Below are positions 24,311 through 32,888 of a stretch of 64,000 nt of DNA, piece by piece (positions within the stretch are counted from its first letter, which is position 1; every line of letters starts with the position of its first letter). Both the position numbers and the translations under genes were made by a program. Source of the stretch: Antarctobacter sediminis (GTDB lineage: Bacteria; Pseudomonadota; Alphaproteobacteria; Rhodobacterales; Rhodobacteraceae); contig NZ_JAHUZG010000001.1 of the NCBI RefSeq assembly GCF_019218285.1, forward strand, positions 806,001 to 870,000, in the 5' to 3' direction. The notes beneath the pieces were generated by a model. That model was not told the origin of the DNA, made no database searches, and saw only the letters and a list, made by a program, of their open reading frames with translations.

Positions 24311-24541
24311 TCAGAGCAATTCGATCCGGTAGCTTTCGATCACCGTGTTGGCCAGCAGCTTTTCGCACATCTCGCCAATCGTCGCCTCGGACGTGCCATC
24401 GGCCAGATCCATCTCGATCACCTTGCCTTGACGCACCGAACCGACGCCGTCGAAACCAAGCGCCCCAAGCGCATGGCGGACCGCCTCGCCCTGCGGATCC
24501 AGAACCCCGTCCTTGAGCATCACATGCACGCGCACTTTCAT
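24311..24541 (-). CDS. purS: Phosphoribosylformylglycinamidine synthase subunit PurS
   Basis: 76 residues, the family length. Features are KVRVHVMLKDGVLDPQGEAVRHALGALGF in blocks and VIEMDLADG. PurS links PurQ to PurL in the three-part FGAM synthase of non-enteric bacteria. It lies just outside the protease cluster: the next gene upstream on this strand is the beta-helix protease, whose terminator at 24606 separates them. In many relatives purC and purS are close neighbours, so the cluster appears inserted; this comparison is from memory. Confidence 0.95.
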   Translation of the reverse strand: MKVRVHVMLKDGVLDPQGEAVRHALGALGFDGVGSVRQGKVIEMDLADGTSEATIGEMCEKLLANTVIESYRIELL

Positions 24542-24605: not shown

Positions 24606-24633
24606 AAAACGCCGCCCCCGAGGGGACGGCGCC
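24606..24633 (-). terminator. Terminator of the beta-helix protease gene
   Basis: On the - strand GCCGTCCCC-TC-GGGGGCGGC (one bulge) is followed by GTTTTTCTTT. It lies 22 bases after the protease stop and before purS. Confidence 0.75.
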
Positions 24634-24654: not shown

Positions 24655-27600
24655 TTATTCCTTGTTGCCACGGCGGATGACGTTGCCGGCGTCCGCCTCG
24701 ATCCGGAAGGTGCCGGCGGTGTTTCCGGCCAGATCGTTGTTTTCGTAGGTGCCGCCACCGCCTTCGCGGATGCGGATCGCCTCGTAGACATTGGCGAAGA
24801 TCTTGTTGCCGCGCACCAGCGGGGTCGAGTCACCCTTGACCGAGAGACCGTAGAACCCGTTGCGGAAGATCTCGTTGTTCTCGATCACGCCGCGGCCACC
24901 GCTGTGGACATAGATGCCCGACTGCTGACCATCGCGCAGGATGTTGTCAAAGACCTGCGGGTTGGCGTTGGTCTTGATCTCGATCCCGGCGTAGGCGTTG
25001 CCGTAGATCTCGTTCTTGGTGATCCGGGCGATGCTGCCTTCCGAGGCCATGATGCCACCCTGCTGACCGTCGCGGACAGTATTGCCCGAAATCAGCGGAT
25101 CGTCCGCGGCCTTCACCTCGATGCCGGACAGGGCGTTGTTGAAGATCGTGTTGCCTTCGAACCGGCCCTTGCCGCCTTCGTTGATGAAGATGCCCGAACC
25201 GCCGCCGTCGCGGAACGTATTGTCCTTGACGGTCGGGTCCGCGCCTTCCTTGAGCTCCAGACCAGCCAGCGAGTTGCCGAAGATCGTGTTGCCCTCGATC
25301 GTGGCCTTGCCGGCCTCGAACATGAAGATACCGCCCTGTGCACCGTCATGGATGACGTTGCGACGCACGGTCGCCCCTTTGTTGGCACGGATCGCGAGAA
25401 CAGCCAGACCTTTCGAGGTCAGGTCGTTGTCTTCGATGATGACGGAACCGCCTGCAACGTGGAAGTTGAAGTACTTGCCGCCATCCTGGTGGATCGACAG
25501 GCGCGCCACACGGCCCGATTCGGCGGTCCAGCGGATCGCATTGTCGTCCTTGACCTTCAGGATGATGTCCTTGACCGGACCCACACCCACGATTTCCAGC
25601 GGCTTCGACACGTCGATACCGGTGGTGTAGGTGCCCGGGTAAACTTCGATCCGGGCATTGGGTTCGGCAGCGCGGACCGCATCCGCAAGGCTGGAGTAGT
25701 CACCACCACCCGAAGCCTTCACCGTCAGAACGTTCACGTTCTTGGGCTCGGGCGTCTTGGTTTTCTGACCCGGACCTTCGATATTGCCGATCCGGATGAC
25801 CTTGCCGGCATCGGGTTCGATGCGGAAGGTGCCGGCGGTGTTGCCCGACAGGTCATTGCGCTCATAGGTGCCGCCACCGCCTTCGCGGATGCGGATCGCC
25901 TCGTAGACATTGCCCGAGATCACATTGTCACGGACGGTCGGGTTCGAGTCACCCTTGACCGAGATACCGTAGAACCCGTTGCGGAAGATCTCGTTGTTCT
26001 CGATCACGCCGCGACCACCGCTGTGCACATAGATGCCCGACTGCTGACCGTCGCGCAGGATGTTGTCATAGACCTGCGGGTTTGCATCGGCCTTGATCTC
26101 GATCCCGGCATAGGCATTGCCGTAGATCTCGTTCTTGGTGATGCGCGCCACGGTGCCCTCAGAGGCCATGATGCCACCCTGTTTGCCGTCCCGGATCGTA
26201 TTGCCCGAAATCAGCGGGTTGTCCGCGGCCTTCACCTCGATGCCGGACAGAGCATTGTTGAAGATCGTGTTGCCTTCGAACCGGCCCTTGCCGCCTTCGT
26301 TAATGAAGATACCCGAACCGCCGCCGTCACGGAAAGTGTTTCCGGACACGATGGGATCTGCGCCTTCCTTGAGTTCCAGGCCCGCCAGCGAGTTGCCGAA
26401 GATCGTATTGCCTTCGATCGACGCCTTGCCGCTTTCGAACATGAAGATACCGCCCTGCGCGCCGTCATGAATGACGTTGTTACGCACGGTTGCACCCTGG
26501 TTGGCCCGGATCGCCAGCACGGCGAGGCCCTTCGAGGTCAGATCGTTGTTCTCGATGATGACCGAACCGCCAGCAACGTGGAAGTTGAAGAACTTGCCGC
26601 CATCCTGATGGATCGACAGGTTCGCCACACGGCCCGATTCAGCGGTCCAGCGGATCGCATTGTCCTCGGCCACTTTCAGGACGATGTCCCGCTTGTTGCC
26701 GACGCCGATGATTTCCAGCGGCTTCGACACGTCGATACCGGTGGTGTAGGTCCCCGGGTAAACTTCGATCCGGGTGCCCGGCTCTGCCGCCGAGACTGCC
26801 GCCGAAAGATCCGAGTAATCGCCGCCCGACGCCTTGACCGTCAGGACCGGACCGCCGTGTTCGGGCGGATCAACCTTGACCGTCTTGTTGTCAGGAATGC
26901 CGCACTCACGCTCGATGATACGCTGTGCCATCGGGGCAAAGGTGTGATCGGAACATTCCGAGGCATAGACCTCGTATCCCGAACAGCCAAGGATCTTGGC
27001 TTCGGCCCACATCGCGGAACAGGCCTGCGCATGTTCGCGATCCGGATCGATATCGATTTTCTTCTTTTTCGGACCGGGATCGACGACGACACCGCCATCA
27101 GCGGTCGCCTTGAGCACACGGCTTTGCGGCAGGATCCGGGTCATCGGGATGGCCATGTTGTACCCGGTGCGGCTGTCGCCCGCGTGGTGCAGGCCGACAA
27201 CGGCATTGTCGCTCAGACGAATGACAGGCGAGCCCGAGTTGCCGCCCAGCGTGTCACAGCTGTGCATCAGCTTGCCCTCGGCGGAAATTGCCGGGATCGC
27301 GGCGGCACAGCCTTCGCGGCTGATGTGCTGCGCCTGGCCCTGCGGGTGGCCGATGATCCAGAGAAACTCGCTGTCCTGCGGATCGGCTTCGGCCAGCTTC
27401 AGCATGCCGTATTTGGTGGAGGGATTACCAAAGACGCGCAGCACGGTGTAATCCAGCTCGCGGTTGGTTTCGATGATCTGCGGGCTGACGGTGTAACGGT
27501 CGACGCCTTCCGAGCTGCCCGGCTTGATAAAGCCTGCAACGAACTGAGCCGCCTGCACACCGCTGTCACGACCGGTGGGATCACCGTCCATGCCGGGAAT

Positions 27601-27936
27601 GCAGTGGTGGTTGGTCAGGATGTGCTGGTCATCGACGATGAAAGCCGTGCAAAAGCCGGTCTTGCCGTTCTGGAACAGCATGTCCAGACGACCGATCGGG
27701 CGACCCAGCTTTACGATCGGGCTGGCTTCGCCGTACTTGATGATCGGTTCGTTCTGGTAGTCGCCAAAGGCCTGCTCAAAAACAAGACCGCCGCCACCGG
27801 CCGACTGACGAGGCTGGATGACAATCTTGCCAAAGTCGGCTGGATCGAATTCTGCGGGTGCTTGCTGTGCAGAGAGAGGGCCGACTGCGGCCGCTGCCCC
27901 TGCACATAGCGCAAGTGCTGAGATGAGTTGACGCAT
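24655..27936 (-). CDS. Secreted trypsin-like protease with duplicated beta-helix domain
   Basis: 1093 residues. A signal peptide (LISALALCAGAAAAVGPLSAQ) precedes an S1-type protease domain with His111 (TNHHC), Asp162 (ELDYTVL) and Ser234 (GGNSGSP). A short four-cysteine module spans residues 306-345. Two copies of a roughly 355-residue right-handed beta-helix follow (about 364-719 and 735-1090) with repeated turns such as GGIFMFE, SGIFINEGGKG and GIEIKA. The start has GGGGAC upstream. It is likely exported and could bind polysaccharide or another surface through the helices while cleaving protein. It shares its protease and Cys module with the next gene upstream. Target and role are unknown. 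Confidence 0.85.
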   Translation of the reverse strand: MRQLISALALCAGAAAAVGPLSAQQAPAEFDPADFGKIVIQPRQSAGGGGLVFEQAFGDYQNEPIIKYGEASPIVKLGRPIGRLDMLFQNGKTGFCTAFIVDDQHILTNHHCIPGMDGDPTGRDSGVQAAQFVAGFIKPGSSEGVDRYTVSPQIIETNRELDYTVLRVFGNPSTKYGMLKLAEADPQDSEFLWIIGHPQGQAQHISREGCAAAIPAISAEGKLMHSCDTLGGNSGSPVIRLSDNAVVGLHHAGDSRTGYNMAIPMTRILPQSRVLKATADGGVVVDPGPKKKKIDIDPDREHAQACSAMWAEAKILGCSGYEVYASECSDHTFAPMAQRIIERECGIPDNKTVKVDPPEHGGPVLTVKASGGDYSDLSAAVSAAEPGTRIEVYPGTYTTGIDVSKPLEIIGVGNKRDIVLKVAEDNAIRWTAESGRVANLSIHQDGGKFFNFHVAGGSVIIENNDLTSKGLAVLAIRANQGATVRNNVIHDGAQGGIFMFESGKASIEGNTIFGNSLAGLELKEGADPIVSGNTFRDGGGSGIFINEGGKGRFEGNTIFNNALSGIEVKAADNPLISGNTIRDGKQGGIMASEGTVARITKNEIYGNAYAGIEIKADANPQVYDNILRDGQQSGIYVHSGGRGVIENNEIFRNGFYGISVKGDSNPTVRDNVISGNVYEAIRIREGGGGTYERNDLSGNTAGTFRIEPDAGKVIRIGNIEGPGQKTKTPEPKNVNVLTVKASGGGDYSSLADAVRAAEPNARIEVYPGTYTTGIDVSKPLEIVGVGPVKDIILKVKDDNAIRWTAESGRVARLSIHQDGGKYFNFHVAGGSVIIEDNDLTSKGLAVLAIRANKGATVRRNVIHDGAQGGIFMFEAGKATIEGNTIFGNSLAGLELKEGADPTVKDNTFRDGGGSGIFINEGGKGRFEGNTIFNNALSGIEVKAADDPLISGNTVRDGQQGGIMASEGSIARITKNEIYGNAYAGIEIKTNANPQVFDNILRDGQQSGIYVHSGGRGVIENNEIFRNGFYGLSVKGDSTPLVRGNKIFANVYEAIRIREGGGGTYENNDLAGNTAGTFRIEADAGNVIRRGNKE
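24661..26847 (-). repeat. Two tandem copies of a 1.07-kb beta-helix coding unit
   Basis: Copy 1 runs about 25780-26847 and copy 2 about 24661-25733. Long stretches are almost identical in DNA as well as protein, for example the blocks around CGGATGCGGATCGCCTCGTA and GGCCCTTGCCGCCTTCGTT. Both start with VLTVKASGG and end with a VIRIGN/VIRRGN strand. The near identity points to recent duplication or gene conversion. Confidence 0.9.
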
Positions 27937-28128
27937 GATAATGTCCCCGTTGGTAAAGAATACTGCTTAAAACTACTTTGATCCCGCCTGTGCCGCCAAG
28001 TAAAGAATTCCTTGCCTGCGACGGTGAAGTCCCGTGACTCCGGGGGCTTGCGGCAACGATCATGGTGTTTCGAAACGCGAAACAGCGACGCGCTGCGCCG
28101 CCGTTCCGCCCGTGTCACGCTTGCGTGA

Positions 28129-30732
28129 TCAACGCTGATCGGGTCGTGGCGCAGCCGCCACCAACCGTTCCAGCGCACCGCGCGTGGTCGGCCCAAAGAC
28201 GCCATCCACGTCCCCGGGCCGCAAGTAGCCCCGCGCTACAAGGTCCCGCTGGATCTCGCGCGTTGTGGCATTGGGCAGTTTGTGCAGCTGGGTGATCGGA
28301 TGGGCATAGCCATCGGCAATGGACTCGACGAGGTATTTCGCCGCCAGCGCATGATCGGTGCGGACCGCTCGGCCAAGGCTGTAATAGACGCCAAGGGAAA
28401 ACTTGCCCTGAGGCAGCCCGGCACCCGCCGTTTCGCGATAGATCTCCAGCGCCAGGTCATAGTTTTTGCGCAGGCCCAGACCGCTGTTATAGGCCACACC
28501 CAGCGAATAGCGCGCAGGCAGGAAATTCCCCATACGCGGGTTGCGCAGGATCGGGATCGCCTCGCTGTAACGTTTCTTGGTGATCAGGGCACGGGCATAG
28601 CCATAGTGAACGGCGGGCTCATCGCTGATCTTGCGGGCCGCGCTACAGGCCAATTCCGCAGCATCCGCGTCGAAATCAACGCGTGAGACACCGGCAATGC
28701 CCTCGACCGCGAATTGCGGCATCGAAACCTCAAGGCACTGGGTCACGATCGGGGCGCGCGCGGCCTGTTGGTCGGCCGCCTTGCGCAAAGCCAAGGCCTC
28801 TTTTTCGGTTTCGGATATGCGCCGTTCTGCAAGGGCCACCTGCGCGATGATCTGGTTCAGCCACTGGGCGGAAAGATCGCCGGTGTTGTCCACCCGCAAC
28901 AGGGACTGTGTCACCACGGCCTCGTCCTTGGCCTTGGCGATTGCGTCCAGCCCGGTGTCGACAACCTTGGCAAGGCGTTCCATCCCTTCGGCGCGGGACT
29001 GCACCCTCAGCAAGTCGCCGGCCAGACCACGGGCAAGGGCTTCCCAAAGTTCGGCCACCTGCGTATCGCCGGGGCCGCCGGTCTCTCTTGCCTCCTGAGC
29101 CAGCACATAGACGCGGGCCACAATTTCTTCGTAGGCCGCGACCTGTTTCAGGGCGAGCGCCTGAACCTCGTCCATGGATTTGCGCGTGGCGTTGCCTTTG
29201 ACCAAGGCCGCGTCGATGCTGCGGCGCAGGGCGGCGGCGCGCGGGTCTTCGGTCTGACGGTTCACCGCGTCCTGCAACAGGGCCAGCGCTTCGGCCTCGC
29301 CCTCCTTGAACAGCGCCTCCGCCATTGTCTTGCGAGCGGAAACAAAGGCCAGCCTTTCGCGGCTCGACTCGGCCAGCGTTCCCGCCCGTTTCAAGGCCGA
29401 GTCGATCTCGGCCTCAGTCGTCGCGGCGCGCAGAACGTCGAGTTCCGCGTCCATCGACGCCAACAGCCCGGACATGGCGCGCACACGTTCCTGGGCATCG
29501 GTCAGCGGTGCTGACAGGCGCTGCGTGATCCCGGTCCACAGCGCGGTCACCTCGGCGCTGCCCGGATCGACCGAGCTTTCGGCATCTCCGGCGCGGGCCC
29601 GGGCGCGGTTGACCGTCCCTTCAAGGCTAAGCACCGCGCGGTTTGCGGCGGTGATTTCGCGCGCGATCTCGGCGCGGCGACCTTCGGCAGTGCGCAGCGC
29701 CGTGTCGATGCTGTCCTTCAGCGGATTGACGGCCGGACCGGTATCGGGCGGCGTGCCACCGCCCGCCGCCTTGCAGGACCGATCCGCCAGCCCACGGGCC
29801 AGCGGCGCAAGCGGGTGCGCGCCGCATTGCTCAAGGAAGGTCTGATATCCAAGGCAACCATGCTGTTCCGCCGCGCCCCAGAGAATTTCGCAGGCCCCCT
29901 GCCCCTTGGGCGGTTCCGGCGGGCTCACCGGCGCGGCGGCCTTGAGGATCTGGCTTTCCTGTAGAATCCGCGTCATCGGGATGGCAAAGTTGAACCCGGT
30001 CCGGTTGTCACCCGCATGGTGCAAGGCCACCACCTGACGGTCCGAGATCCGGAACACAGGGGATCCCGAGTTACCGCCAAGCGTATCGCAGGTATGCACC
30101 ACCTTCCCCTCGGTCGAGACGGGTGGATCACCCGCGGCACAGCCTTCGCGGCTGATGTGCTGGGCCTGCCCCTGCGGGTGGCCGATGATCCACAGAAACT
30201 CTGACGGGTCGGGATCGGCATTGGCCAGCAGCACCTTGCCATACCGGGCGGACGGGTCGCCAAAGACCCGCAGAACCGAATAATCCAGCGCGGCGCTGGT
30301 TTCCAACGGCTCCAGGCCAACCTGAAATTTCTCGGCCTTGTCGGGATGGGCCGCATCGACATAGCCCACCACGAACTGCGCCGCCTGCACTCCAACGCCG
30401 TCGATGCCGGGGATACAGTGGTTGTTGGTCACAAGATGTTCGGTATCGACGATGAAGGCGGTGCAATAGCCGGTTTTGCCATTCTTGTAGAGCACGTCCA
30501 GCCGCCCAACCGGCCGGCCCAGCCGCCGGGCGATGCTCTTTTCGCCATAAGAAATCACCGGCTCGTTCTGGTAATCGCCAAAGGCCTGTTCCAGCACGAA
30601 ACCCGTGCCCGAAGACTGGCGCGGGGCCACCACGATCTTGCCGAAATCGGAGGGATCAAATTCCACCGGCTGCGCCGCAAGCGGCGCGGCCAAGACGGCC
30701 AACAGCAGGGATTTCAGGGCAACACGGCGCAT
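28129..30732 (-). CDS. Secreted trypsin-like protease with coiled-coil, Sel1 and peptidoglycan-binding parts
   Basis: 867 residues. Signal peptide (VALKSLLLAVLAAPLAAQ), then a trypsin-like domain with His105, Asp150 and Ser222 (GGNSGSP). The four-cysteine module has Cys at 281, 293, 303 and 320. A long Ala/Glu/Arg-rich, probably coiled-coil region follows (about 340-640). Then come Sel1-like repeats (ARYSLGVAYNSGLGLRKNYDLALEIY and GKFSLGVYYSLGRAVRTDHALA) and a C-terminal peptidoglycan-binding-like segment (IQRDLVARGYLRPGDVDGVFG). ATG 30732 starts the signal peptide with GAGG upstream. It probably works at the cell wall. The N-terminal half is clearly paralogous to the neighbouring proteases. 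Confidence 0.82.
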   Translation of the reverse strand: MRRVALKSLLLAVLAAPLAAQPVEFDPSDFGKIVVAPRQSSGTGFVLEQAFGDYQNEPVISYGEKSIARRLGRPVGRLDVLYKNGKTGYCTAFIVDTEHLVTNNHCIPGIDGVGVQAAQFVVGYVDAAHPDKAEKFQVGLEPLETSAALDYSVLRVFGDPSARYGKVLLANADPDPSEFLWIIGHPQGQAQHISREGCAAGDPPVSTEGKVVHTCDTLGGNSGSPVFRISDRQVVALHHAGDNRTGFNFAIPMTRILQESQILKAAAPVSPPEPPKGQGACEILWGAAEQHGCLGYQTFLEQCGAHPLAPLARGLADRSCKAAGGGTPPDTGPAVNPLKDSIDTALRTAEGRRAEIAREITAANRAVLSLEGTVNRARARAGDAESSVDPGSAEVTALWTGITQRLSAPLTDAQERVRAMSGLLASMDAELDVLRAATTEAEIDSALKRAGTLAESSRERLAFVSARKTMAEALFKEGEAEALALLQDAVNRQTEDPRAAALRRSIDAALVKGNATRKSMDEVQALALKQVAAYEEIVARVYVLAQEARETGGPGDTQVAELWEALARGLAGDLLRVQSRAEGMERLAKVVDTGLDAIAKAKDEAVVTQSLLRVDNTGDLSAQWLNQIIAQVALAERRISETEKEALALRKAADQQAARAPIVTQCLEVSMPQFAVEGIAGVSRVDFDADAAELACSAARKISDEPAVHYGYARALITKKRYSEAIPILRNPRMGNFLPARYSLGVAYNSGLGLRKNYDLALEIYRETAGAGLPQGKFSLGVYYSLGRAVRTDHALAAKYLVESIADGYAHPITQLHKLPNATTREIQRDLVARGYLRPGDVDGVFGPTTRGALERLVAAAPRPDQR

Positions 30733-30832
30733 GTTCAGGGCCTCGCAGATCCGGTTGACGACAGGGTAACGCGCTGAACAGTCGCCCGCCAAGTCATGAA
30801 ATCCTCGCCATTCGGCACGGCGCGGGCCGCGA

Positions 30833-31689
30833 TTACTTGGTTGCGTCGATCAAGATCTGTTCGCTTTCGGCCTTGCGCAACTGTGACCGGGCCACGTTCA
30901 GCAACCCCGAGACCCCGGAAGCCACCTTCCCGACCTTTTCAACCTGCGCCTCGATTCCTGTCACGATCTTGCGGGCCGCGGCCCCACGACCTTGCGATCC
31001 GATACCCGAAACACCGGCAAGCCGGAATTTCCGCCCAGCGTGTCGCAACTGTGGACCAGCTTGCCCTCGGGCGACACCGCCGGGTCATCCGCGGCACACC
31101 CTTCACGGCTGATGTGCTGCGCCTGCCCTTGCGGGTGTCCGATGATCCAAAGCGGCTCGCCGTTTTCCGGCGGGTCAGAGACCAGTTCGACCGCACCAAA
31201 TTTGGCCGAGGGATCGCCAAAGACCCTGAGGACGGAGTAATCAAGCGGCACGCTGGTTTCCACCGGCTGAACGGCCACCTGGAACTTTTCGGCGCCGCGA
31301 CCGTGCCCGCCGTCGACGTAACCCGCCACGAACTGGGCCGCCTGAACGCCAAGGCCGCCGATGCCCGGAATACAGTGGTTGTTGGTCAGGATGTGCTGAT
31401 GATCGACGATGAAAGCGGTGCAAACCCCGGTCTTGCCGTTGGAATACAGCACATCCAACCGCCCAACCGGCCGCCCGACCCGGCGCGGCAGGCTATTTTG
31501 GGAATAGGTGATGATCGGTTCGTTCTGATAGTCGCCAAAAGCCTGTTCGAAAGTTAGCCCGTTAGCTCCGGCCGACTGGCGTGGGGCAAGGACGAGCTTG
31601 CCGAAATCCGACGGATCGAATTCGACCGCTTGCGCAGAGGCAAGCGTCCCCCAGACACAACAGGACAACATCAAGGCAGACCGAAACAT
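30833..31689 (-). pseudogene. Broken trypsin-like protease paralogue
   Basis: An intact start (MFRSALMLSCC signal peptide, ATG 31689) and protease domain with His105, Asp150 and Ser222 (GGNSGLP; Ser to Leu two residues on) run to DRKVVG. There the frame turns into PRPARS and stops at 30961 (242 residues). In the paralogues VVG/VVA continues LHHAGD-RTG and the last protease strands, which are absent. One frame over, the sequence continues as an open helical tail (ARKIVTGIEAQVEKVGKVAS... to the stop at 30833). This looks like an internal deletion that joined a protease start out of frame to the tail of the old gene. A short secreted product may still be made. Confidence 0.65.
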
Positions 31690-31787
31690 GACATCCCCAC
31701 AAGGCACAGCGCGACGTTGCAGGCAACGTTAGACGCCGTCGCGGATCAAGTCACGTCGCTATGATCGTAGGGTGTTTGCGACGGGTT

Positions 31788-32127
31788 TCAGCCCTGTGCC
31801 GGACGGGTCCAGCCCTCGTAGGACCAGCGCCAGCCTTCCAGCGCCTTTTCAAGCTCGGCTGTGCGGGAGTCGAAATCGGCGCCCGCCACGGCGCGTTTTT
31901 CGGCAAAGTCAAACCCGCCGCTTTCGCCCGGGACAACCTCGAACCCTTGAATCGCCAGAAAATCCTGAACGACGGTCGAGTTGATGTCGCCCGCCGGGCT
32001 TGGCACGGTGCGGTGGATCACCCGCCGCACCCGTAGAGCCGTCATCGCCTTTTGCCGCAAGCTCGGCCCGGATGGCATCATTACGCGCCACGTTCGGATC
32101 CTTGCGCTTGCGGAACAGGCCGAACAT
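31788..32127 (-). pseudogene. RraB-like (RNase E inhibitor family) gene with a frameshift
   Basis: ATG 32127 overlaps the purC stop by one base (TGATG). The frame gives [20 protein letters not shown]... then GDDGST, after which it diverges. A frame one base over continues RRVIHRTVPSPAGDINSTVV... and ends FDSRTAELEKALEGWRWSYEGWT, resembling RraB proteins. Removing one G from the GGG run at 32030-32032 joins both into a single protein of about 112 residues. Either the gene is broken, the base is a sequencing error, or the shift is corrected in translation. The second frame also has its own ATG at 32081 with no clear ribosome site. RraB identity is moderate. Confidence 0.55.
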
Positions 32128-32888
32128 CAGTTGATGAGTTTCGGCTTGTTGATGTGGGTGGCCGACTTGGGCATCACGCCCAGACGGCGCGCAACCTCGG
32201 TATAGGCATCCGCAAGATTGCCAAGGTCGTGGCGAAACACATCCTTGTCCAGCTTCTTGCCGGTTTCGATGTCCCACAGACGGCAGCTATCGGGCGAGAT
32301 TTCATCCGCAACGATCAGGCGCTGATAATCGCCGTCATAGACCCGGCCAATCTCGATCTTGAAATCCACAAGGCGGATGCCGACGCCATACATCAGGCCC
32401 GACAGATAGTCGTTCACCCGCAGGGCAAGCGCCACGACATCGTCCATGTCCTGCTGGCTGGCCCAGCCAAAGGCGGCGATATGTTCCTCGGTGACCAGCG
32501 GATCGCCCAGCTTGTCGTCCTTGTAGCAGTATTCGACGATCGGACGTGGCAGCGCGGTGCCTTCCTCGATGCCCAGACGCTTGGACAGCGACCCGGCGGC
32601 ATAGTTACGCACGATCACTTCCAACGGAATGATCTCGCAGGCGCGGACCAGTTGCTCGCGCATGTTCAGCCGCTTGATGAAATGGGTCGGCACGCCGATG
32701 CCGTTCAGCCCGGTCATGAAGAATTCGCTCAGGCGGTTGTTCAGAACACCCTTGCCTTCGATCACGTCCTTCTTTTCGGCGTTGAAGGCGGTGGCGTCAT
32801 CCTTGAAATATTGCACGATTGTGCCGGGTTCGGGGCCTTCGTACAGGATCTTTGCCTTGCCTTCGTAAATTTTCTTGCGCCGTGCCAT
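32127..32888 (-). CDS. purC: Phosphoribosylaminoimidazole-succinocarboxamide synthase
   Basis: 253 residues, the short bacterial form. It joins aspartate to CAIR with ATP in purine synthesis. Conserved parts: [62 protein letters not shown], and [16 protein letters not shown] 32888 is preceded by GGAAAGGG; the frame stays open upstream without other support. It is divergent from the zeta-inhibitor gene (181 bases between) and overlaps the RraB-like start. Confidence 0.97.

Follow-up and report, generated by a model that had tools for sequence, protein, structure and literature searches.

Genomic context

Why should three related and predicted exported proteases be encoded between two genes of purine synthesis, and why do their C-terminal parts differ? 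Within the window, by which we mean the whole analysed stretch of 64,000 nucleotides from Antarctobacter sediminis, genes A, B and C lie on one strand between purC and purS. An earlier note on this DNA had placed them at exactly these positions, with purS, purQ and purC as neighbours, and had ascribed to them a common signal-peptide-like start and trypsin-like domain, two beta-helices in A, a coiled coil with Sel1-like and peptidoglycan-binding parts in B, and a broken third gene, all of which our analysis bore out. The features, all on the reverse strand, are the following:

24311..24541, reverse strand, purS, left border of the insertion
24608..24633, reverse strand, terminator-like stem-loop with T run, directly after gene A and before purS, matching the consensus
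24655..27936, reverse strand, gene A, 1093 aa: signal-peptide-like start, conserved N-terminal region, trypsin-like protease, four-cysteine module, two beta-helices
27070..27936, reverse strand, protease part of A including the N-terminal start, with a complete His-Asp-Ser triad
28129..30732, reverse strand, gene B, 867 aa counted from the ATG: signal-peptide-like start, trypsin-like protease, four-cysteine module, long helical coil, TPR/Sel1-like repeats, peptidoglycan-binding domain
29902..30732, reverse strand, protease part of B including the N-terminal start, with a complete His-Asp-Ser triad
30835..30970, reverse strand, remnant of 47 codons behind gene C, coiled-coil-like and out of frame
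30961..31689, reverse strand, gene C, 242 aa: signal-peptide-like start and protease domain; pseudogene, frame lost
32127..32888, reverse strand, purC, right border of the insertion

Most analyses of gene B used a start at 30738 (two more residues), and those of gene C a start at 31692 (one more residue). Terminator-like sites were not in excess (10 against 9.3 in shuffled sequence), and the promoter scan returned one site against 2.1 in shuffles. The frame of gene C stops at 30961, just past the catalytic-serine motif and before the final protease strands. Its protease groups in the tree with a Pseudoponticoccus copy (support 98/72), and among the M. alba genes Mameliella C is the closest to it in DNA comparison (78.8%). 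The remnant behind gene C has no significant match among the proteins of the set (best E 0.48), and the idea that gene C once carried the tail of the Mameliella gene C was therefore dropped.

The protease domain

The protease domains of B and C are 65% and 62% identical to that of A, and all three match the Pfam family Trypsin_2 (A, 67.7 bits, E 2.4e-18; B, 53.5 bits, E 5.6e-14; C, 58.6 bits, E 1.5e-15) above its cut-off of 27.6. His, Asp and Ser follow each other in the right order, in complete domains in A and B, while C retains all three and is truncated after the Ser. The triad is intact in 70 of the 77 family domains, which are a selection from which several weak or distant matches (among them G004:C26:28045, G005:C27:354364 and some copies of ~32% identity) were left out. 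Among solved sequences the best hits are to glutamyl endopeptidases, FAM111A and Spl. Along the protease domain the window proteins resemble S1 proteases of the V8/glutamyl endopeptidase type, and Spl proteases as well (E values from 3.4e-06 to 0.0038), and have the catalytic His-Asp-Ser in common with them; they differ in adding a long conserved N-terminal region, the four-cysteine module and large C-terminal modules. In both A and B the residue five positions ahead of the catalytic Ser is a Thr, and a His lies in the LHHAG stretch; these are the positions of the determinants of acidic substrates in V8. As judged from these residues, A and B may prefer to cleave after Glu or Asp. In the AlphaFold models the protease region has low pLDDT (in A <50 at every residue from 1 to 298, in B mostly 30-66), and the structure matches of both models fall mostly on the tails.

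The C-terminal modules

The tail of A consists of two beta-helices that are 87% identical (R1, ~residues 361-728; R2, 729-1093), are recognised by the Pfam Beta_helix/NosD families (7.7e-93 and 1.1e-80) and are modelled at ~360-720 and 735-1093 with a pLDDT mostly around 90. In predicted structure they have the fold of alginate epimerases and lyases. The DPH motif of alginate epimerases is absent from protein A by string search. In B, PG_binding_1 scores just above its cut-off (8.2e-05; 23.2 bits vs. 23) and Sel1 falls under its own (1.2e-04). AlphaFold places long helices at residues 339-660; for this coil Foldseek gave no match at E<=0.001, and the matches from VIA were all of a generic kind, helical or TPR.

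Age of the insertion

purC and purS normally adjoin, as the earlier note had said: the gap between them has a median of 76.5 bp in 48 relatives without the proteases, and measures 2.4-8.9 kb in seven with them. An A-type (beta-helix) gene precedes purS in all 17 named loci, from several genera, a set that was located via the protease and is thus uninformative on relatives lacking it, and of which ten loci are the same contigs as in the sampled genomes, so that the two sets are not independent. Within the genus, A and B carry the same tails in six of six genomes, and C is like-tailed in three, broken in the window genome and not found in two. The occurrence of the A-type gene before purS at 17/17 loci and the fixed tails of A and B indicate that the insertion is old. 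The earlier note had set its reading against an arrangement with the same genes and tails in most relatives; such an arrangement was found in part, for A and, within the genus, for B, and it did not extend to C. A recent or mobile insertion was rejected in view of the A-type gene at every named locus, and free shuffling of tails at purC-purS was not seen. Also against a recent or mobile origin, the GC content shows no clear break at the insertion, phage records gave no match, and the only two plasmid matches were both weak.

Tail exchange and constraint in the wider family

The family is rare: of the 295 genera sampled, 10 gave a match at E<=1e-40. Within this genus each genome has 7-13 matches to the protease head. 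At least four further close paralogues lie elsewhere in the window genome, each with a different tail, and this, together with family members in relatives, confirms the expectation that the protease would occur elsewhere with other tails. Recognised tails of the family are binding or repeat modules. At one sister locus (C1:34757) the tail has been replaced in place behind an orthologous conserved protease: it is unrelated in two of six genomes, with protease and both flanks aligning at 83-89% identity. Orthologues at this locus bear a PG-binding tail, a WD40 tail or a coil followed by PG-binding. The tail that the window genome has here is found in a different genus too, attached to a caspase-like head.

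That the protease is conserved while the attached parts diverge, as proposed from the window alone, agrees with dN/dS values of 0.03-0.10 for the proteases of A, B and C vs. 0.13-0.35 for the tails of A and B. Mapping 11 tail labels on the protease tree, from which two fragments of one Mameliella locus and a stop-interrupted copy (L047) were left out, required 18 changes, compared to a mean of 53.5 after shuffling (0/200 as low), and tails therefore mostly follow the protease. In the beta-helix and SH3 orthologue groups they are fixed over several genera. Finally, three genomes have, at two loci, tail-less copies that lack the catalytic triad and adjoin active ones, and these copies probably regulate or decoy their active neighbours.

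Function of the proteases

A fixed cutting part with differing and sometimes replaced tails suggests one activity that is aimed at different targets. We give a probability of about 0.6 to the reading that these are exported V8-like proteases addressed by interchangeable tails, with purC-purS as the home site of one branch. The family would comprise lineage-restricted, S1-type serine proteases, predicted to be exported, of bacteria of the Roseobacter group. The first protease gene to settle between purC and purS, in a common ancestor, may have been the beta-helix-tailed gene A. Tandem duplication on the spot might then have produced B and C, which have other tails (in B of the helical/TPR/peptidoglycan-binding kind), and gene C would have decayed later. 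The conserved domain would do the cutting and the C-terminal modules would hold it at different places, putatively at acidic polysaccharide (beta-helix), at the cell wall (peptidoglycan-binding, SH3) or at partner proteins (Sel1/TPR, WD40, PDZ). The swap at the sister locus would then be an instance of tails acting as exchangeable units. A further-reaching version is put forward only tentatively: a predicted exported, conserved head would be re-aimed in evolution by in-place exchange of the whole C-terminal cassette, taken from a stock of tails that caspase-like heads use as well, and the neighbouring tail-less, triad-dead copies would restrain it.

Alternatively, the genes might encode degradative exoproteases, an enlarged repertoire of secreted peptidases for feeding on the protein of algae or hosts, whose tails anchor them to particles or to the cell surface with no choice of target. 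The resemblance of the beta-helix to alginate-acting folds and the wall-binding types among several tails would fit, as would the genera of the named relatives, which are known as marine. However, the strong constraint on the proteases and the fixation of beta-helix and SH3 tails better suit specific substrates, PG_binding, SH3, Sel1 and PDZ suggest the periplasm, and keeping triad-dead copies would be senseless for digestion, so that we regard this alternative as rather unlikely. An HtrA/DegP-like periplasmic set for the quality control of misfolded protein, in which the tails replace PDZ as substrate-binding domains, seems more improbable still. HtrA/Deg proteins are likewise trypsin-like proteases with C-terminal interaction modules and are exported, as is predicted here, and two other members of the family do have PDZ_2 domains, one or two apiece; but Pfam finds no PDZ domain in A or B, HtrA is not among the solved-sequence matches, and the rarity of the family contrasts with the universality of quality control. 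The alphaproteobacterial, HtrA-like pair MamE/MamO does illustrate that an inactive copy can be needed by an active one, as in the dead copies here an inactive homologue together with an active one (PMC4794232, in the part considered). According to the same part, however, MamO requires its TauE domain for the activation of MamE, a domain that the tail-less copies lack, and physical contact between the two was not detected.

In-place tail replacement, dead neighbours and fast-evolving tails are also what would be expected of conflict effectors, used in attack on other cells or phages or in defence against them, with an arms race changing the tails and dead copies as protective partners; in the portion of PMC7159879 drawn on here, trypsin and caspase heads stand in for one another as effectors of conflict systems, and in one position they are often inactive. 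PADLOC matches, however, cover only the protease part of RT-Protease_XI (profile ~344-506 of 506/510), and since Pfam detects a reverse-transcriptase domain in none of the three genes, they do not represent that fusion; those to LmuA and PDC-S45 are weak (E 0.001-0.01). Polymorphic toxin systems similarly combine a conserved front part with a C-terminal part replaced in place, but in the family described here it is the enzyme that is conserved, what varies is a module for binding or made of repeats, and neither a toxin tip nor an immunity gene was found among the recognised parts, as would characterise such systems. With no toxin-type C-terminus recognised, the scarcity of phage and plasmid matches, and conserved loci adjoining purine genes, a role in conflict appears very improbable.

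Addressed proteases, our preferred reading, have parallels in other multidomain systems. A prokaryotic survey (PMC2605481) lists trypsin domains joined to Sel1, PDZ and cell-wall- or carbohydrate-binding modules, the kinds seen in this family; it gives architectures with example proteins, and in-place tail replacement and dead neighbours are not described in the part considered. Prokaryotic metacaspases combine their head with WD40, TPR, Sel1 or peptidoglycan-binding partners (PMC3501461, likewise in part), and one such head has a tail that is 45% identical to the tail of a member of the present family, although metacaspases have the caspase fold and a Cys nucleophile and the family here is S1-type. 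The family itself was not found among the matches listed in literature searches on the architecture, on secreted proteases of Mameliella and on domain shuffling.

The family offers, ready-made, protease domains that closely resemble one another but bear different tails, in part at one and the same locus of sister species. Whether it is the tail that selects what an exported bacterial protease cuts can thereby be tested directly, the natural chimeras serving as controls. A further idea open to test comes from the triad-dead neighbours, namely the regulation of active proteases by inactive homologues, and MamO and MamE (PMC4794232) are a precedent for it.

Protease Genes Between purC and purS

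Three related trypsin-like protease genes, A, B and C, lie between purC and purS in the window:

Genes of the purC-purS interval
32127-32888, minus strand: purC, one border of the three-protease cluster
30961-31689, minus strand: gene C, a decayed protease gene
28129-30732, minus strand: gene B, intact
24655-27936, minus strand: gene A, intact
24311-24541, minus strand: purS, the other border of the cluster

As claimed in the earlier note, these minus-strand genes share a start that by eye resembles a signal peptide, then VEFDPSDFGK or a sequence close to it, and a similar protease domain, which matches Trypsin_2 (Pfam) in all three and is 65% identical between A and B and 62% between A and C. 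C-terminal of the protease, A and B carry a small four-cysteine module (C-x11-C-x9-C-x16-C), which in the window genome is otherwise matched in a paralogue at C3:524 kb (contig:position; E ≤ 2.6e-19 for the three) and, beyond these, by one stretch at E 0.5. The remaining tail of A matches beta-helix/NosD, and that of B matches PG_binding_1 and, weakly, Sel1/TPR (Pfam). Gene C is a decayed gene, because its frame ends shortly past the catalytic-serine motif and a coiled-coil-like stretch of 47 codons follows in a different frame.

The space between gene C and purC contains a small open frame (31788-32081, minus strand) that has no Pfam match and is 68-71% identical in three genomes taken as Mameliella. 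Opposite gene A, on the plus strand, runs an open frame of 1001 aa (24904-27909), which probably arises from the beta-helix repeats of gene A.

Age and Distribution of the Insertion

In a family-level sample of 295 genomes (one per genus), 282 yielded a PurS match and 288 a PurC match. Spacing was determined for the best 62 PurC rows, for 58 of which PurS was among the matches listed, in 55 cases on the same contig. The expectation that purS and purC adjoin in relatives without the cluster was borne out in this set: the gap is ≤200 bp in 44 and ≤500 bp in 47 of 48 protease-free cases (median 76.5 bp), compared with 2353-8866 bp in the seven with proteases. The protease itself (gene B domain as query, E ≤ 1e-40) was found in 10 of the 295 genomes, eight of which have it at purC-purS; of 385 genomes in a class-level sample, two gave a match (profile A1, E ≤ 1e-30), one of them the window genome itself.

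Seventeen loci were found in the named genome collection, all via the protease and ten of them on contigs that, judged by length, also belong to the sampled genomes. They belong to Mameliella, Antarctobacter, Maliponia, Tropicibacter, Pelagimonas, Cognatishimia, Pacificoceanicola and Pseudoponticoccus, in addition to a record labelled Enemella and bins. An A-type gene stands ahead of purS in all 17 (distance 79-681 bp), and purC lies upstream of the cluster in 16, the remaining locus beginning at a contig end. The A-type gene has two beta-helices at the Mameliella and Antarctobacter loci and one at the other named loci; all six genomes of the window's genus have the doubled-length tail. The earlier note had taken the same genes with the same tails in relatives as the mark of an old, fixed arrangement, and within the genus this is what we find for the A-type and B-type tails (6/6 each), but not for the C-type gene, which is intact in only three genomes. 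On the domain tree, the non-dead proteases of the site (dead meaning loss of the His-Asp-Ser triad) form one clade (27 rows, 89/85). Since the A-type gene precedes purS throughout, tails are kept in the genus and the site proteases form one clade, the simplest reading is a single occupation of the site, followed by tandem duplication into copies with other tails. Among the sampled genera, the one whose PurC is closest to that of the window (96%) shows a purC-purS gap of 48 bp and no protease match in its genome (84% complete), so loss or a non-vertical history is also in play.

In six of the compared loci (L061-L063, L066, L069, L070) purS and purQ are spaced about 1 to 2.3 kb as well, and this may be a second insertion site in relatives. 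The record titled Enemella evansiae (L068) has a family protease, and purS and purQ 86-88% identical to those of the window; it is probably a mislabelled or contaminated assembly. One genome taken as Pelagimonas (L049) has two adjacent DUF1476-like genes near purC.

Family Members Elsewhere and Their Tails

The window genome contains 13 protease matches (E ≤ 0.001), and the six genomes of the genus 7-13 each at E ≤ 1e-20, counting dead copies and fragments. That the protease domain would recur elsewhere with other tails proved correct: four paralogues in the window genome, on three contigs and 43-50% identical to A, end in SH3_3, in Sel1 and PG_binding_1, in PG_binding_1 and a C-terminal domain of no named family, and in a likewise unnamed 147-residue tail; neither of the two PG_binding_1 matches reaches the cut-off. 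WD40 propellers, one or two PDZ domains, IalB and YARHG occur across the whole set. The 11 tail labels need 18 changes on the 77-domain tree, against a shuffled mean of 53.5 (0/200 that low); tails are mostly inherited along with the protease. A further family copy of the window genome (L047, C1:1163.9 kb) has a TAG stop within the matched protease stretch.

At C1:34757 of the window genome tails have been replaced in place. The locus is syntenic in 6/6 genomes of the genus; four have like tails (62-81% identical), while two have tails unrelated to the common one, WD40 in G001 and a coil with a peptidoglycan-binding part in G003. Between G003 and G005, the 5' flank, protease and 3' flank are 89, 86 and 89% identical (coverage 93, 91 and 100%), and between G001 and G002 89, 83 and 89% (coverage 97-100%), with a tail coverage of 0% in both comparisons. 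Homology breaks 5-12 bp past the model-defined protease end and returns 6-21 bp past the last codon. The front coils of the two replacement tails share 58% identity across 90 columns, and the G003 coil also has a 68% match in a different protease of that genome, so shared coils may serve as joints for tail recombination.

A tail related to the common one is also found behind another kind of head. In genome G010, where no protease of the trypsin-like family was detected at E ≤ 1e-20, a C14 caspase-like protein (Peptidase_C14, E 8.8e-27) with a signal-peptide-like start carries a tail that shares 45% identity with the tail of the C1:34757 copy in the window genome (E 9.8e-34). The sole C14 caspase match of the window genome (L098:1432-3114, C3:604 kb; E 4.4e-7) lies in a protein of 561 aa that has a signal-peptide-like start, a degenerate-looking caspase part and, by eye, a peptidoglycan-binding-like middle and end; a congener's protein (L094) looks alike by eye and has PG_binding_1.

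Copies That Lost the Catalytic Triad

Of the 77 domains, 70 have all three triad residues, a count in which truncated gene C is scored intact. Six of the seven dead copies are tail-less (≤23 residues past the protease domain) and belong to G003-G005, taken as three Mameliella genomes: three at the purC end of the cluster have lost His and Asp and kept Ser, and three adjoining the Sel1-tailed protease have lost all three residues. By simple Nei-Gojobori estimates their dN/dS is 0.26-0.47, compared with 0.03-0.07 for the active domains that these genomes carry at the C and Sel1 positions and 0.09-0.12 at the C1:34757 position; the tail-less dead copies are under looser constraint than active domains, but their values stay below 1. 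The neighbour of the Sel1-tailed site in G001 and G002 is a predicted active-type protease (triad intact) with a different tail, and the window genome has no such neighbour at this site. The seventh dead copy is a protein of the window genome (L048:393-3245, C5:154 kb) whose trypsin-like domain lacks all three residues; behind this domain lie a WD40-like propeller and, at the end, a weak peptidoglycan-binding part.

Fusions of trypsin-like domains with Sel1, PDZ or wall-binding modules have been described (PMC2605481), and metacaspases draw on a similar tail set (PMC3501461). Among the open-access matches listed, we found no account of this trypsin-like family, of tails exchanged in place within it or of its dead neighbours, which is weak evidence of absence. 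The purC-purS locus by itself is an old, ordinary-looking cluster; the surprise lies in the behaviour of the whole family.
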